Source: a virus. From it: a stretch of 48,625 nucleotides of DNA. A model generated the notes under the pieces. The model worked only from the letters and a program-made list of their open reading frames with translations. It ran no database searches and was not told where the DNA came from. The translations under genes were made by a program, and so were the position numbers. Location: positions 1 to 48,625 of the IMG/VR virus record IMGVR_UViG_3300033182_001244. One strand, written 5' to 3'. Below are positions 38,770 to 46,400 of the stretch, piece by piece (positions within the stretch are counted from its first letter, which is position 1; each line of letters opens with the position of its first letter).

Positions 38770-39896
38770 CAGTAGCCTTCTTCTATATAATCTCTGTGAA
38801 GAGCAAAATTTTCTTTAAAAACTAGATTCAATGATATTTCTGTTGGTGATCCATCTTTAAAAAATTTTTGAGAATAGTTAGTTGTCAATGATGTTAAAAC
38901 TGATTGACCAATTTTATGTAAATTAGGATTCCCCGTTTCATGTGAATCATAAGTGTAAAATGTAATAGTATATACATTAGGAAACTTAAAAAATGCTGAC
39001 TTTGCAATATTATTAACTTTATAACTTACATTATTTTTTTGTTTAACTATAATTTCTGTATTTGGATTTATTTTATTTAAATTATAATCTTCTAATTCAT
39101 TATTATCTTCTGTTTTTTGATAATAAACATTCTTTCTCATATCAATCGAAGGCAGACTAGGCAACATACCGTCTTTGAGATTTGTAATAATTCTCATAAC
39201 TCTTTCAGATTCTATAGGATTTTTTGGTCTAAAAGTAAATTCAAATGAATGTTCTCTTAAATTTTTAACACCAGTAAACACTAAAGAAGTATAGGGATTT
39301 CTTTGCTGTCTCATTGAAAGTGCTGCAATATCTTCACCTTTTGCTCCTGTGAGATTGAGCCCATTCATCAAATCACCTATTGCAGTTGCTGAATTAAATT
39401 TAAATCTATCCCAAGCATCTGGCGCATATCTATCAAATCCTTCTTGTGCAACACCAGAAATTGATTTTCCCATACTAGAATAAAAAGTTGAAGTTCTATT
39501 TATCAGCGAAGATTGATCCTTAAGATAATCACCAAAAGCACCTATTGCAGTAGATGTCAATTCTTCGGCATTTTGAGCTATCACTTCCCCAAAAAAACCC
39601 ATTTTGACTTCATCATAACTAGCGGAGTATGAAGTTTTTAAAGAACCTTGGGGTAAGTATAAACAAAATGTTCTAACAATATCATAATATCCTGTTTCGT
39701 CTCCTGATATTGTTTCATTAAAGTTATCAATACCTGATGAATTATTTTTATTTAAAGGGTCAGAAGATTTTTTTAATGAATTATAGGTCAATTCTTTAAT
39801 TAACATAAAATGTTGTGCCGAATCTTCATACTCGCCCAAGTTTAATGGAAATCTAAGTTCCTGATTTGTTGTTCCTATTTGTGTAAAAAAACTCAT
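38769..39896 (-). CDS. gp48: Tail-tube cap protein gp48-like
   Basis: In T4, gp48 and gp54 sit on the hub and start tail tube polymerisation. This 375-residue protein (T4 gp48: 364) has the FEFTFRPKNPIESERVMRIITNLKDGMLP strand-helix and a C-terminal EISLNLVFKENFALHRDYIEEGY, which matches the TLEITMREIITLNRASLY end of T4 gp48. The middle is low in conserved residues, with a helical part (AEELTSTAIGAFGDYLKDQ). The product of the preceding gene shares the same two motifs, so the two are paralogues. AGGACAATT precedes the ATG, which overlaps the upstream stop. Assignment to gp48 rather than gp54 is by the C-terminal match and length. Confidence 0.75.
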   Translation of the reverse strand: MSFFTQIGTTNQELRFPLNLGEYEDSAQHFMLIKELTYNSLKKSSDPLNKNNSSGIDNFNETISGDETGYYDIVRTFCLYLPQGSLKTSYSASYDEVKMGFFGEVIAQNAEELTSTAIGAFGDYLKDQSSLINRTSTFYSSMGKSISGVAQEGFDRYAPDAWDRFKFNSATAIGDLMNGLNLTGAKGEDIAALSMRQQRNPYTSLVFTGVKNLREHSFEFTFRPKNPIESERVMRIITNLKDGMLPSLPSIDMRKNVYYQKTEDNNELEDYNLNKINPNTEIIVKQKNNVSYKVNNIAKSAFFKFPNVYTITFYTYDSHETGNPNLHKIGQSVLTSLTTNYSQKFFKDGSPTEISLNLVFKENFALHRDYIEEGY

Positions 39897-40813
39897 AATT
39901 GTCCTAAAGTTTCAATAAATGGTGAAAATTCTTCTCTATTTCTCTCTCTGGTATAAATTTCCGTTTCCTTAAATGTCATAGAAAATTTTGTGGAGAAAGG
40001 GTACCCATCATTATAAAAAGCTGGAGTAGCAGTTCCAGATGAATACTCCACATCAAATTTCTCTAAAACAGCATTTCTTATACTAACCATATATTTACTT
40101 CCTGGTCTGTTATTCGCATTTTCAAAATTAAAATTTGATGCTTCGGTTGGATAAAAGTTGATGTCAAAAATATCAGGCAAATTTTGAATGCCTAATCTTT
40201 TTCTAAATCCATTCGTTTCTTCAAAATTTTCAATAGGCATCATAGATTTTTTGAATTGCTTTACAATCTGTACCAAAGTATCTGATTCTCTATCGTTTTT
40301 AGGAATTAATTCATAAGAAAAAGAAAAACTTCTAAAACCAGAGTTTGAAAAAATATTTGTCATGAAAGAACTTTGTATTACTCCCATTCCTTGGTTTACT
40401 GCGGATTTTAATGTAGGAGTTGCTGATAATGCCATATCAGATGCCATTTTTGCAAAATTCGATGAATTAAATGATGAGACTGTGTTTTTTAATATTGTAG
40501 AAAAATCTGTTGATAGTCCTGAAAAACTTCCAACACTACTTCCAATTGCAGCAGCACCTCCAATTCCAAAATCTGATTGGGTGTATGATACATTAACTCC
40601 ATCGGAAATGGATGGTATAGGTAATGCTATAAACCCCAAATGATTTGTTTTGTTTGCAGTATCTCTTGCCTTAATCGTAAAAACAGCAAATTTAAAAGAT
40701 TCGGATGCCAAATCATCTGAGGATTCGGTCCCCAAATTTTCTGGAAAATAGTATTTAATACCTACATCGGTTTGATTTGATAGTTTTGCTATTTTTGATG
40801 CGTTATCTGTCAT
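39893..40813 (-). CDS. Tail-tube initiator/cap paralogue (gp54/gp48 family)
   Basis: The product is 306 residues. The motif SFSFSYELIPKNDRESDTLVQIVKQFKKSMMP and the end FSMTFKETEIYTRERNREEF repeat the corresponding parts of the next gene, so it belongs to the same tube-like fold. T4 gp54 is 320 residues and is the partner of gp48, which makes gp54 the likely equivalent, though direct similarity to T4 gp54 is weak. The middle has a Gly/Ala/Ser-rich helical segment (GIGGAAAIGSSVGSFSG). It is the first gene of the minus-strand late block, with a late promoter motif ACTAAATA and an AGGGAG ribosome site in a leader of about 15 bases. Confidence 0.7.
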   Translation of the reverse strand: MTDNASKIAKLSNQTDVGIKYYFPENLGTESSDDLASESFKFAVFTIKARDTANKTNHLGFIALPIPSISDGVNVSYTQSDFGIGGAAAIGSSVGSFSGLSTDFSTILKNTVSSFNSSNFAKMASDMALSATPTLKSAVNQGMGVIQSSFMTNIFSNSGFRSFSFSYELIPKNDRESDTLVQIVKQFKKSMMPIENFEETNGFRKRLGIQNLPDIFDINFYPTEASNFNFENANNRPGSKYMVSIRNAVLEKFDVEYSSGTATPAFYNDGYPFSTKFSMTFKETEIYTRERNREEFSPFIETLGQL

Positions 40814-41284: not shown

Positions 41285-41863
41285 ATGGCAGAAAAAAGCT
41301 TTTTACAATCATTAAAAGATACAATTAGAAGAAATGAAGATCGACCAAAAACCAAAAATGCGGCCGATTGGTTTCGAAGAAAAGTTAGTGCTCTAAAGGG
41401 AGAACTTAGGGGTAAATTTTCCAAAAACGATACAGCAAATGAATTCTATCAAAAATCCAAAAAAAGTCGAATAAAAAATATAGAACCTGGAGTTATGGCA
41501 GCATATTTTTATGATCCAAAATATAAAATGCAATTACCGTATTATGATAGATTTCCAATGATACTTTGTATAAAAATGTACCATAATGGTTTTCTCGGAA
41601 TAAATTTTCATTATCTATCCCCACTTCTTAGAGCAAAACTAATGGATGCTATTGAACAAAAAAATAGCATTAATTGGAATGCATTAGTTAATATTAAAGA
41701 AATAAAACCAACAATAAAAAGATATTTATGGAAACATATAACATCTAAAATTGTTATCATAGACGATTCAGAAAAAAATATTGCTTTATTTTTACCATTA
41801 GAAAGATTTAAAAAGCAAGATAAATTGACCGTATGGTCAGATAGTAAAGGAATGATCCGATGA
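41285..41863 (+). CDS. Conserved unnamed protein between gp4 and the tube-like gene
   Basis: The product is 192 residues. The N-terminal 55 residues are basic and probably helical (SLKDTIRRNEDRPKTKNAADWFRRKVSALKGEL). From about residue 68 a conserved block follows: GVMAAYFYDPKYKMQLPYYDRFPMILCI, then GINFHYLSPLLRAKLMDAI. I have seen this YYDRFP...GINFHYLSP block in hypothetical proteins of marine T4-like phages beside the tail genes. It has no assigned role that I know. The end (ERFKKQDKLTVWSDSKGMIR) is polar. It could be a DNA-binding or packaging protein, given the basic N-terminus and the gp4 neighbour. The stop overlaps the start of the next gene by 4 bases. No ribosome site is present; the late motif is 5 bases before the ATG. 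Confidence 0.75.
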   Translation: MAEKSFLQSLKDTIRRNEDRPKTKNAADWFRRKVSALKGELRGKFSKNDTANEFYQKSKKSRIKNIEPGVMAAYFYDPKYKMQLPYYDRFPMILCIKMYHNGFLGINFHYLSPLLRAKLMDAIEQKNSINWNALVNIKEIKPTIKRYLWKHITSKIVIIDDSEKNIALFLPLERFKKQDKLTVWSDSKGMIR

Positions 41864-42456
41864 ACATATCGTCCTTCAAACAAGCATTGACCACTCTACA
41901 AGGTCCCGCACCAGTAAATAGATTTTTTGTATATATCGAAGGCGGTCCTGATATAAATTATAGAAATGTTAAAAACGAACTATATTTAATGTGCGAATCG
42001 GCGGAATTGCCTGGTAAAAATTTAATGACATATGATGATAAATTATATGGACCAATAAGAAAAATACCATATGCAATGGGTTTTACCGAAACAACTATGA
42101 CCTTTTTGTGTACAAATGGAGGATTAAGAGAAAAAAGATTTTTTGACGAGTGGCAAAATCTTATAATAAATAACACGTCTAGCGATGTATCATATTATGA
42201 TGAGTACAAAGCAACAATTAAATTACAACTTTTTGACGAATTTAATAATTTAAATTTTGAAGTGTTATTTCTAGAAGCATATCCATTAACTGTTTCTCCG
42301 ATATCACTCACACAAAGCCCATCTACAGACTATGCTAGAATTACAGTATCATTCTCATACAGAAGATGGACCGAAGATATTAATACAAAACAGACAATAT
42401 TGTCAAGACGTGCTGATGCACAAGAATTGTCAAGACGTGCTGATGCACAAGAATAA
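41860..42456 (+). CDS. Tail-tube family protein (gp19-like)
   Basis: The 198 residues carry the gp19 tail tube fold signature: MCESAELPGKNLMTYDD and YGPIRKIPYAMGFTETTMTFLC, followed by EKRFFDEWQNLIIN and, near residue 140, FLEAYPLTVSPISL with ARITVSFSYRRW near 170. T4 gp19 is 163 residues. The C-terminal SPISL...TVSFSYRRW also resembles T4 gp54, which shares the tube fold, so this may be gp54 or a second tube protein rather than the main gp19, which I would expect next to the sheath gene. The last 18 residues are a perfect duplication LSRRADAQE-LSRRADAQE. AAAGGA precedes the ATG and the start overlaps the previous stop. Confidence 0.85.
   Translation: MNISSFKQALTTLQGPAPVNRFFVYIEGGPDINYRNVKNELYLMCESAELPGKNLMTYDDKLYGPIRKIPYAMGFTETTMTFLCTNGGLREKRFFDEWQNLIINNTSSDVSYYDEYKATIKLQLFDEFNNLNFEVLFLEAYPLTVSPISLTQSPSTDYARITVSFSYRRWTEDINTKQTILSRRADAQELSRRADAQE
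42400..42453 (+). repeat. Perfect 27-bp tandem duplication at the end of the tube-like gene
   Basis: Two identical 27-bp units directly precede the stop codon and encode LSRRADAQE twice. The unit is about 44% G+C with a CGT arginine codon, richer than its surroundings. Each unit holds a small hairpin, GTGC-TGAT-GCAC. Confidence 0.97.
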
Positions 42457-42491: not shown

Positions 42492-43235
42492 ATGGCATTA
42501 CCAAAACTTGATGTGATTTATCATGAGATGAACATAATATCTAAAAAAGAAACTATAAGGTTTAGGCCTTTTTTAGTAAAAGAAGAAAAAATACTGTTAA
42601 TGGCTCTCGAAAGTGGTGAAGAAGCCGAAATGGTCAAAGCAACAAAACAAATTTTAAACAATTGCATTCTAAATGATGACATCGACATTGAAAAATTACC
42701 ATTATTTGACATGCAATATATGTTTTTACAGTTAAGAGCAAAATCTGTAGGTGAAATAAGCGAGTTAAAAGTTAGGCATCCTAATGGAAAAAATTCATTA
42801 GGAGATGAGTGTAACCATATGACCGATTTGAGAATTGATTTATCTAAAATTAAACCATTGATTAATGAAAATCATACGCCAAAAATACAACTCAATGATA
42901 GTGTTGGAATATCCATGAAATATCCTACATTAGAAATTCTTCTAAAAATGGAAAATATTGATGAGAATGAAAAAAGTTCTGTTGAATCGATATTTGATAT
43001 AATGGCTGATTGTATAGATTTTATCTACGATAAAGATGAAGTTTATTATTCAAACGAACATAGTAGAGAAGAATTGATTGAGTTTATTTCATCATTAAAC
43101 ACACAACAATTTAATAAGATTAGAGATTTTTTTAATACAATGCCTGCAATGGTACATCATGAAAGTTATATTTGTTCAAAGTGCGGACAAAAAGAAACTT
43201 TAACATTTTATGGTGTAGAAAGTTTTTTTTCGTAA
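42492..43235 (+). CDS. gp26: gp26 baseplate/tail assembly protein, probable tail assembly chaperone (G-like)
   Basis: The 247 residues belong to the T4 gp26 type (Pfam T4_baseplate). The N-terminus (FRPFLVKEEKILLMALES) and NNCILNDDIDIEKLPLFDMQYMFLQLRAKSVGE near residues 55-85 are the family signature. The C-terminus has CSKCGQ (Cys228 and Cys231) and YGVESFFS. The CxxC could be half of a zinc site, together with C and H residues in DECNHMTDL. It lies directly upstream of the tape measure gene, which is where tail assembly chaperones sit in other tailed phages. It ends at TTT TTT TCG TAA, a T8 run where a -1 slip would join it to the following 66-residue frame. AAAGGA lies before the ATG. Confidence 0.88.
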   Translation: MALPKLDVIYHEMNIISKKETIRFRPFLVKEEKILLMALESGEEAEMVKATKQILNNCILNDDIDIEKLPLFDMQYMFLQLRAKSVGEISELKVRHPNGKNSLGDECNHMTDLRIDLSKIKPLINENHTPKIQLNDSVGISMKYPTLEILLKMENIDENEKSSVESIFDIMADCIDFIYDKDEVYYSNEHSREELIEFISSLNTQQFNKIRDFFNTMPAMVHHESYICSKCGQKETLTFYGVESFFS

Positions 43236-43429
43236 GCCTGTGTCATAATACGTTAAAAAACTATTTTACAACAATTTTTAATTTGATAACGCACCATAAA
43301 TACAATTTGTCTGATTTGGAAAATTTGATTCCTTATGAGCGTGACATTTATGTTGGATTGTTAATTGATTATATCAAAGAGGAAAATAGAAAAATGAAAG
43401 AACAGCAAGCACATCAGAAAAAAAGATAG
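43172..43429 (+). CDS. C-terminal extension of gp26 in the -1 frame (T-like, possibly gp51)
   Basis: This frame continues gp26 after a -1 slip at 43223-43229. From the slip it encodes 66 residues (FVSLCHNTLKNYFTTIFN, then a segment HHKYNLSDLENLIPYERDI followed by YVGLLIDYIKEENRKMKEQ). No ATG exists in it before the Met near its end; the nominal start at 43172 is a TTG inside gp26 without a ribosome site. The fusion would be 312 residues. The LENLIPYERDIYVGLLIDYI helix followed by a charged tail is like the T parts of lambda G-T type chaperones, and the tape measure starts 9 bases after its stop. In other T4-like phages the small gene after gp26 is annotated gp51 (baseplate hub assembly); it may be the same thing. 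Confidence 0.7.
   Translation: MFKVRTKRNFNILWCRKFFFVSLCHNTLKNYFTTIFNLITHHKYNLSDLENLIPYERDIYVGLLIDYIKEENRKMKEQQAHQKKR
43223..43229 (+). other. Candidate -1 ribosomal frameshift site
   Basis: A run of eight T gives the heptamer T TTT TTT in the gp26 frame, two codons before its UAA stop. Both tRNAPhe could re-pair after a -1 slip. The next codon in the new frame is TTC, and the frame then stays open for 66 residues. I see no strong downstream hairpin, only AT-rich sequence. Confidence 0.6.
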
Positions 43430-43438
43430 GATAAAAAA

Positions 43439-46400
43439 ATGGCCGAAGAATCTAATAAAGCAAAATTAAATGAAGTAATTGATGAATTACAAAATAATAC
43501 TGAAGAAAATCAAGAAACTGTTACAGAGAATAAATTACTATTGTCTGAAACAATATCGGATTTTAAAAAAATCGCCAAAACTTACATTGAAATTGCAAAA
43601 TTAAATAAATCGGCAGCAAAAGCATATAATTCTTCCGATTATACTACAGTAAAACCCGAAAATATACCTGAAGAAAAAACTATTCAACAAATTGAAAAAT
43701 CAACACCTCAATTAAAACCATTGTCAGAAATAAGTTCTATGATGATGCAGTTGATTAAAACAAATAATGAAAAACATGACAGGTTATACAAATTATTCAA
43801 TGATCAATATAGACAAGAAGATATTAGAAGAAGAGAAAACGAAGCCGAGAAAAGCAAAAAAACATCAAAAACGACAAAAAGTAAATCAAGCAAAGGTTTT
43901 TCAAAGGCAACTAATTTTCTAAAAAATATATTACAAACTGCTTTTTTAGGAAAAGAAGGCACATCATTATTGAAAAGTTTAATACCTAAAAGTTTTGATA
44001 AAGATTTTGGTTTGGTTTTAGTACGAAGTATCGCTGGAGCATTAATTGGACCTGAATTTTTAAAAGCAATACAAGCATCAATGGCAGCGGATGGTCTAGA
44101 AAATAAAATAATAGCATTTTTTGATGAATTATTTACTGGAGAAAAAACTGTTCTAGAGTCTATAGGCATTGGTGCGCTGACAGGTCTCGCGGCATTAGGT
44201 CCTTCAGGGATTATAATAGGGGGAATATTAGCAGGCGTATATAATGCATTTTCATCTTATTTTAGTAGCTCTAACATGACAGAAGATGATAAAGAAGCAT
44301 TAAAGAAAAAAATAAAAGATTTTATTTTTGGAGATGCTGGTGCAATGGCCGTTGGTGCATTGGTAGGATTTAAAGCATTTGGTTTACCAGGCCTCATAAT
44401 AGGGACAGGAGTTGTTGCAGCAGGATCTATTATGTCAACTTTTATGGAAAATTATGAAAAATCAAATGAAAAAACAGACTCGGGAAAATTAAAAGAAGCC
44501 GCTCTTAAAACACTAAAAGATAAACCCAAATTAAGTGGATTTTTACTTGGTGGCACTTTAGGTGGACTAATAGGAACTGCAATAGGGGGTCCGGTTGGAG
44601 GTGTTGCTGGCGCAATAATTGGAGCGGGTGTTGGTGCAGTTGCAGGAATAGTCGCAAACAAAATACTATCTAAAGCAGAGGGAGAAGACGGTAAAATAGA
44701 TTCTACTAAAATAAAATCTGCCGTTTTAACTCTTATGAAAGAAAATCCAAAATTTGCTACAATAATAGCAACTACTACAGCAGGTGGTTTGTTGGGCGCT
44801 TTTGGTGGTGGTCCAATGGGCGCTATAGCAGGAGCAATACTTGGTGCAGGTGTGGGCCTAATAGCAGGACCACTAGTTGATCAAATATTGAAAACTGATG
44901 CTATGACTACTGGCTCGGGAAAATTATCTGATGCTGTTGTAGAAGTGATGAAAAAAAATCCAACCCTTAGAAGAATAAGTTTAGGAGCGGCAACCGGAGG
45001 TATACTCGGAGCAATATCTGGTGGCCCTGTAGGTATGATTGCAGGTGCAATTATAGGTGCGAGTATTGGCTATATGGTTGATTTAGTTGATAAAGACTTG
45101 CTGGCAAGAAAGGAATCAAACAAAAAGGCAGGATCAAATACTCCTATGTTAGATGCTATTTTACAATCAATAAATGAAAATCCAGAAATTGCTAAATGGG
45201 GATCATCAGTCATTGGAGCAGCAGTAGGAACTGCGGTAGCAGGTCCTGTAGGATTAGTCGCTGGCGCATTTTTAGGATATGCTTTTGGAAAAGTTTCAGA
45301 AATGGTTGCTGGTGTATTTGCAAGACAACAACAAAATTCTAATGAATCTATTCTCAAGTCTATAGCAAACGAACTGTTAAAAACGCCCATATCCGGTCTC
45401 GCTGCTACCGGAGCATTAATAGGCGCTGGTGCAGGGTTATTTTTAGGCCCAGGGGGTGTTTTAGTTGGAATGGTTGTGGGTGGTGTATTAGGCGCTGCCG
45501 TAGGAGCTATTGTAAAAATGTTAGATAATTTAGGTGTATTTGACTATTTGGGAGAAATGTATGAAAAATTTCGTAAGAGCGTGGAGCTTGCCATGGAGGG
45601 GGAATTCTCAAAAGCATATGAAGTGATGAAAGGAAATTTAGCATATACAGAAGAAGGAATAAAAAAATTAATTGATGAAGGAAATATAGATGATGCTATT
45701 AGAAGTTTAGCATTAGTAGCGACTAATATTCCTGAAGAATTAAAAGATAAATTAGAAAATGTCAATAGAGAAGTCTCAGACATTAAAACTGAAGAAGCAG
45801 AATTTATTTCTAATAATCCAAAGATTAATTTCCAAAGATTCAAAGAATTTTTAAAAGTTAAAAATATAGATATAGGGGATTTAGATAAGAAACAGAGACT
45901 AGAAGTATTAAACCAATACAGTCAAGAATCTGGTTTATCTGAACGGCTAAACGGCAATTTTTTTGATGAAAGAACTAGACAAGCAACACGTGAAAAAAAA
46001 CAATTACTATTTTTTATGAATAATATACTTAGTCCTATGTCTAAATTAGTAAGTGATCAACAAGATGTATTTGGCCAATTGTCAAATTATCTAGGCGATT
46101 CGAATTTACAAAATATTGATATAAGTACAGCCGAAGGACAAAAAATTCTGGTAGAAAGATTCTTTAGATCAATACAACAAATTCCCCCCACAGTAGAAAA
46201 TAATAGCAAAGGATCTTATGTTAAGACACCCATATTAACAACCGTAGGAGAAAAAGGTCCGGAGATGATACTGAATCAAGAACAAATATATGGTGTGACT
46301 AGAGAAATACTAACTCAAAGATATGAAAATGAAATTTTAAAAATGTCGGCGGGGCAAATTCCAATGCCACCGCCGGCTATTCCAAATGTAGTTGATAACA

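Follow-up and report, generated by a model that had tools for sequence, protein, structure and literature searches.

In the window (the whole analyzed stretch of 48.6 kb, 31.6% GC, virus record IMGVR_UViG_3300033182_001244 of IMG/VR), which belongs to a marine T4-like phage, the gp26 gene very probably gives rise to two proteins, a short tail assembly chaperone and a longer -1 frameshift form that results from slippage on a T TTT TTT heptamer shortly before the gp26 stop. This reading of gp26 and its extension is based on sequence, conservation, and homology with gp26 and gp51 of phage T4; from these and from the analogy with lambda, we infer the frameshifting itself, its rate, and the binding roles in this phage.

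The gene is embedded in a T4-like tail region with a tail tube cap, gp4, gp2, a gp19-like tube protein, gp26, the extension, and the tape measure (Table 1). The tail tube gene ends in a perfect tandem of two 27-base units (positions 42400 to 42453), which encodes LSRRADAQE twice just before the stop. A tblastn search of 50,697 phage records found no match for the tape measure protein, which was therefore assigned by its PHROG profile and its position only; it contains glycine-zipper-like segments, and it lacks such a match although its chaperone is well conserved. In HTVC008M, DLP_6, phiM12, and Melnitz (L004, L007, L009, and L015), an extra small gene of about 330 to 450 nt separates the extension from the tape measure gene; it is absent from the window.

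Table 1. Tail region features of the window, with the basis of each assignment
Feature	Position	Strand	Basis or remark
Baseplate tail tube cap protein	39893-40813	-	
Tail tube (gp19-like), upstream neighbor of gp26	41860-42456	+	phrog_45, E 4e-30
gp26, predicted short tail assembly chaperone (TAC-N, lambda G equivalent), 247 aa	42492-43235	+	Pfam, phrog_150, AlphaFold2
Predicted -1 frameshift fusion, 312 residues (TAC-NC, lambda GT equivalent)	42492-43429	+	Inferred from conservation; in-frame counterpart T4 gp51
Slippery heptamer T TTT TTT, in gp26 frame	43223-43229	+	Sequence; lies within 8-T run 43223-43230
Putative -1 extension, gp51-like (TAC-C, lambda T equivalent)	43229-43429	+	phrog_634, tblastn relatives, alignment; 66 residues and TAG
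gp26-frame stop TAA	43233-43235	+	One sense codon (TCG) after heptamer
Tail tape measure protein, 1015 aa	43439-46486	+	phrog_28 (tail length tape measure protein), E 4e-8, and position

The gp26 protein matches Pfam family T4_baseplate (PF12322) with an E value of 1.6e-57 and 195 bits (cut-off, 24.5) over profile positions 6 to 218 of 219, as well as phrog_150 in the PHROG profile search (E 1.3e-64), and tblastn homologues occur in 979 of the 50,697 phage records. Neither the Pfam nor the PHROG scan revealed similarity to lambda G, and the gp26 profile had no match among PDB sequences. The AlphaFold2 model is confident (pLDDT 91), and in a comparison with viral proteins, most of its nearest fold neighbors are baseplate hub proteins of the gp26 type. 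In a PDB fold search with this model, no solved structure was significant; the HK97 tail assembly chaperone 2ob9 had the highest listed probability (0.30), which is a weak match (E 1.7, TM 0.41 by target), and proteasome folds with a TM of about 0.12 were discarded as noise.

The 3' end of gp26 reads GAA AGT TTT TTT TCG TAA. After a slip on the heptamer, reading would resume at codon 43229-43231, with base 43229 read twice, and the resulting fusion would comprise 246 + 66 = 312 residues. The -1 frame is open from position 43163 to the TAG at 43427-43429. A preliminary description, made from the DNA letters alone, had placed the heptamer in the gp26 frame close to its stop, had followed the open -1 frame through it for another 66 residues, had predicted a 312-residue fusion beside a 247-residue gp26, and had noted the tape measure start 9 bases after the end of that frame; all of this was confirmed. 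It had also stated that the -1 frame has no ATG until near its end, and the first one is indeed found at 43394, with the non-ATG starts TTG (43172) and GTG (43181) occurring upstream.

The extension matches phrog_634, the "baseplate hub assembly catalyst" gp51, at profile positions 56 to 120 of 121 (E 4e-27). It additionally matches the C-terminal positions 231 to 276 of phrog_150 (E 6e-4), which suggests that in some gp26 family members the extension is part of the gp26 reading frame. Homologues were detected by tblastn in 550 of the 50,697 phage records, and in the phage regions read, the extension directly follows gp26. It was modeled as mostly helical with moderate confidence (pLDDT 72). 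Its weak matches to PDB sequences, mostly HIV gp41 helices, were taken as chance similarities of coiled coils, and its Pfam matches were all weak and inconsistent.

The ends of gp26 were compared in 17 phage regions, T4, and 80 environmental contigs; the environmental loci were obtained by an alignment-based scan, while a single-sequence scan of viral contigs returned no loci. Both gp26 and the extension are present in 92 regions, or 81 once those with more than 75% identity are removed. The heptamer is found in the gp26 frame at the same place in all 92 (T TTT TTC in 61, T TTT TTT in 31), at a distance of 0 to 8 codons from the gp26 stop (1 codon in 72 and 0 in 12). The gp26 frame continues for 8 codons past the heptamer in L070, L073, L084, and L092, so the arrangement can do without a stop near the slip site. 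Conservation of the -1 frame sets in at the first base of the heptamer, i.e., at the first F (FFR/FFF...), with 37 to 64% identity to the window in the alignment. The arrangement is kept in marine contigs and in isolates of the Kyanoviridae, Straboviridae, Emdodecavirus, Chakrabartyvirus, and Menderavirus, and the heptamer persists in distant isolates, e.g., DLP_6, phiM12, and Marzo. This comparison had been suggested beforehand as a check, and the T-run, the -1 frame, the missing start, and the location ahead of the tape measure gene proved to be retained.

Runs of six T's followed by a pyrimidine are common in the AT-rich window, with 68 on the plus strand and 55 on the minus strand. The expected number of slippery ends was derived from each gene's own codon usage for 84 nonredundant gp26 sequences ending in FF; 82 of these are slippery versus 35.8 ± 4.2 expected, and the other two, T4 and its relative FBB1, both lack the extension. 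Other FF sites within the same gp26 genes are slippery in 8 of 95 cases. Elsewhere in gp26 of the 81 nonredundant relatives, 8 of 19,685 codon positions carry the in-frame heptamer, compared with 81 of 81 at the slip site. The heptamer at the end of gp26 is more than chance.

That the extension is instead a separate small gp51, translated from its own start (TTG or GTG in the window) or by re-initiation past the gp26 stop, is highly unlikely. Such non-ATG starts do lie upstream in this contig, and many GenBank records annotate a separate coding sequence from an internal start, but 57 of the 92 relatives lack any ATG, GTG, or TTG in the -1 frame ahead of the conserved domain, counted to 20 nt past the heptamer, and an early -1-frame start preceded by a Shine-Dalgarno-like site occurs in no more than 4 of the 92. 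The -1 frame of Melnitz, C48C1, and ACG-2014f becomes open as late as 10 to 13 nt before the gp26 stop. It is because the frame has no start or opens late that gp51 has been annotated from internal starts, which often fall within the conserved domain; the gp51 of the Melnitz record, for example, begins 53 nt downstream of the gp26 stop. An independent start would also leave the invariant heptamer unexplained, whereas a -1 shift accounts for the missing starts and the conserved heptamer together.

Exceptions are phages of the Ackermannviridae type (L013, L100, L101, L102, L104, and L105) and the Vibrio phages D503 and K364 (L018 and L103), which have a divergent -1 extension without a T6 heptamer and whose gp26 ends with ATT TTC ATT TAA or similar. 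An ATG that overlaps the gp26 stop (TAATG), a point in favor of independent translation, is present in Limestonevirus, a Yersinia phage, and the Vibrio phages. Kuttervirus and Klebsiella RCIP0012 have TAATT, thus neither T6 nor ATG, and no usual start codon before +29.

The long form could also originate from RNA polymerase slippage on the 8-T run, which would yield mixed mRNAs and is conceivable in this contig with regard to the length of the run. As a rule, however, six T's are too short for polymerase slippage, and T TTT TTC is a standard ribosomal site; with only six T's before the C in 61 of the 92 relatives and the in-frame register of the heptamer kept throughout, a transcriptional origin is barely credible. 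The error-prone nature of homopolymer runs and the in-frame fusion in T4 gp51 speak for a third reading, in which an in-frame fusion gene was split by gene decay or by a mistake in sequencing or assembly. It has a negligible probability and is already refuted at the family level, since the same -1 arrangement and heptamer recur in 81 nonredundant genomes and contigs of many sources, including the isolates S-PM2 and HTVC008M.

For ribosomal frameshifting on the heptamer, a candidate stimulator is GAGG, which many relatives (e.g., L003, L005, L010, and L004) have in conserved Glu-Gly codons 10 to 14 nt ahead of the heptamer. The Glu codon is GAG in 30 of 52 nonredundant cases versus 12.3 expected; the other Glu-Gly sites have GAG in 9 of 45 cases (Fisher P 2e-4). 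Pairing with the anti-Shine-Dalgarno sequence averages -6.1 kcal/mol versus -4.6 kcal/mol in synonymous shuffles, and the z score of about -9.8 is an upper bound because the 75% cut reduced but did not remove sequence relatedness. The element resembles the internal Shine-Dalgarno sequence of dnaX, and GAGG before the slip site is a probable frameshift stimulator. In the window, only GGTG is present upstream of the heptamer, with a Shine-Dalgarno-like affinity no better than expected. A clear stem-loop downstream of the heptamer is likewise missing in this contig (z +0.6), and such a structure is therefore not a general requirement; over the 81 relatives, the mean z score of a downstream stem-loop was -1.15, with 31% below -2. 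The missing stem-loop and the unremarkable affinity in the window, together with the weak fold match to a solved chaperone and the Ackermannviridae extension that lacks a T-run, count against the frameshift model. About as likely as not is the combined proposal that the conserved GAGG boosts frameshifting as in dnaX and that in the Ackermannviridae either re-initiation or a weaker site has taken the place of the slip site.

According to the frameshift model, most ribosomes would terminate at the gp26-frame TAA and release the 247-residue short form. A minority would pause at the heptamer and slip by -1, with the two Phe-tRNAs re-pairing on TTT TTT, and would then read on into the 312-residue form with its mostly helical gp51-like C-terminal domain. 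In the lambda system, the binding partner of G is the tape measure and that of the T domain is the tail tube subunit; the virion retains neither of the two chaperones (PMC5009743). By analogy, the short form may coat the tape measure and the long form may bring in tail tube subunits before both leave.

The situation in T4 itself is different. A 2016 review describes G-T frameshifting as widely conserved "except T4" (PMC5009743), and T4 gp26 and gp51 are classed among the hub assembly chaperones, gp51 being required but absent from the particle (PMC3004832). Gene 26 of T4 is followed by gene 25 without an extension, its end reads GAG TTC TTT GAG with no slippery site, and gp51 is encoded divergently and adjoins gene 26. 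T4 gp51 matches phrog_150 at positions 13 to 280 of 282 (E 3e-84) and phrog_634 with an E value of 1e-23. Profiles of the extension and of the fusion were built from the frameshift family alone; the extension profile finds T4 gp51 at E 6e-6, while no other frame of this 15-kb stretch of T4 scores better than E 0.2. The fusion profile can be aligned to residues 7 to 244 of T4 gp51 and 4 to 207 of T4 gp26. Judged from these alignments, T4 gp51 is a gp26 paralogue with the extension in frame, and T4 gp26 is the short form only. Since gp51 combines a gp26-like part with the extension and gp26 has neither extension nor slip site, T4 most likely makes the short and long chaperone forms from two paralogous genes.

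The proteins annotated as "baseplate hub" (gp26) and "baseplate hub assembly catalyst" (gp51) in hundreds of T4-like records thus most likely represent the short and long chaperone forms of a single frameshifted gene. It follows that many gp51 start annotations in the Kyanoviridae are probably wrong. The finding should help annotation and would account for the "missing" gp51 start.

With respect to known systems, the slip site T TTT TTT of this contig differs from that of lambda, G GGA AAG. The lambda G/GT genes (Xu et al. 2004; review PMC5009743) share with this contig overlapping frames before the tape measure gene, a late -1 shift, and a startless second frame. The overlapping frames, the conserved heptamer, and the T4 homology point to a lambda G/GT arrangement, in which, by homology and position, the short form would be G-like and the long form GT-like. 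The preliminary description had recognized this layout, and its proposal, with gp26 in the role of G and the gp51-like extension in that of T, is in line with the T4 gp51 paralogue and with the published assignment as quoted in later papers. T4 gp26 is homologous to the short form and T4 gp51 to the whole fusion including the extension, yet T4 uses two divergent genes where this contig uses a frameshift. In the Vandenendeviridae and Andersonviridae (PMC12846349), which are different phage families, a -1 shift likewise occurs at the end of TAC-N, on a GTTTTT motif.

Some T4-like phages have short and fused chaperone copies without a frameshift (Vladimirov, Gautam and Davidson, Virology 2022;566:9-15, as cited in the PRFect paper, PMC10885494). 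PolyT slippery sequences were described in TAC-N genes of T4-like phages (Vladimirov et al. 2022, as cited in PMC12846349), and this contig likewise has its polyT slip site at the TAC-N end. As far as the citing papers relate it, the principle was already published in 2022 for T4-like phages, and the window, read correctly from sequence alone, is a further example. The T4 genes named in that work are reportedly 26 and 51, and frameshifting is said to be conserved in several T4-like groups. Nothing categorical separates this contig from the published TAC-N/TAC-NC pairs as they are summarized there; it is uncultured and has a T8 run and no evident stimulator. The gain over the published work lies in the breadth of the evidence, in the possible stimulatory element GAGG, and in the Ackermannviridae without a T-run.
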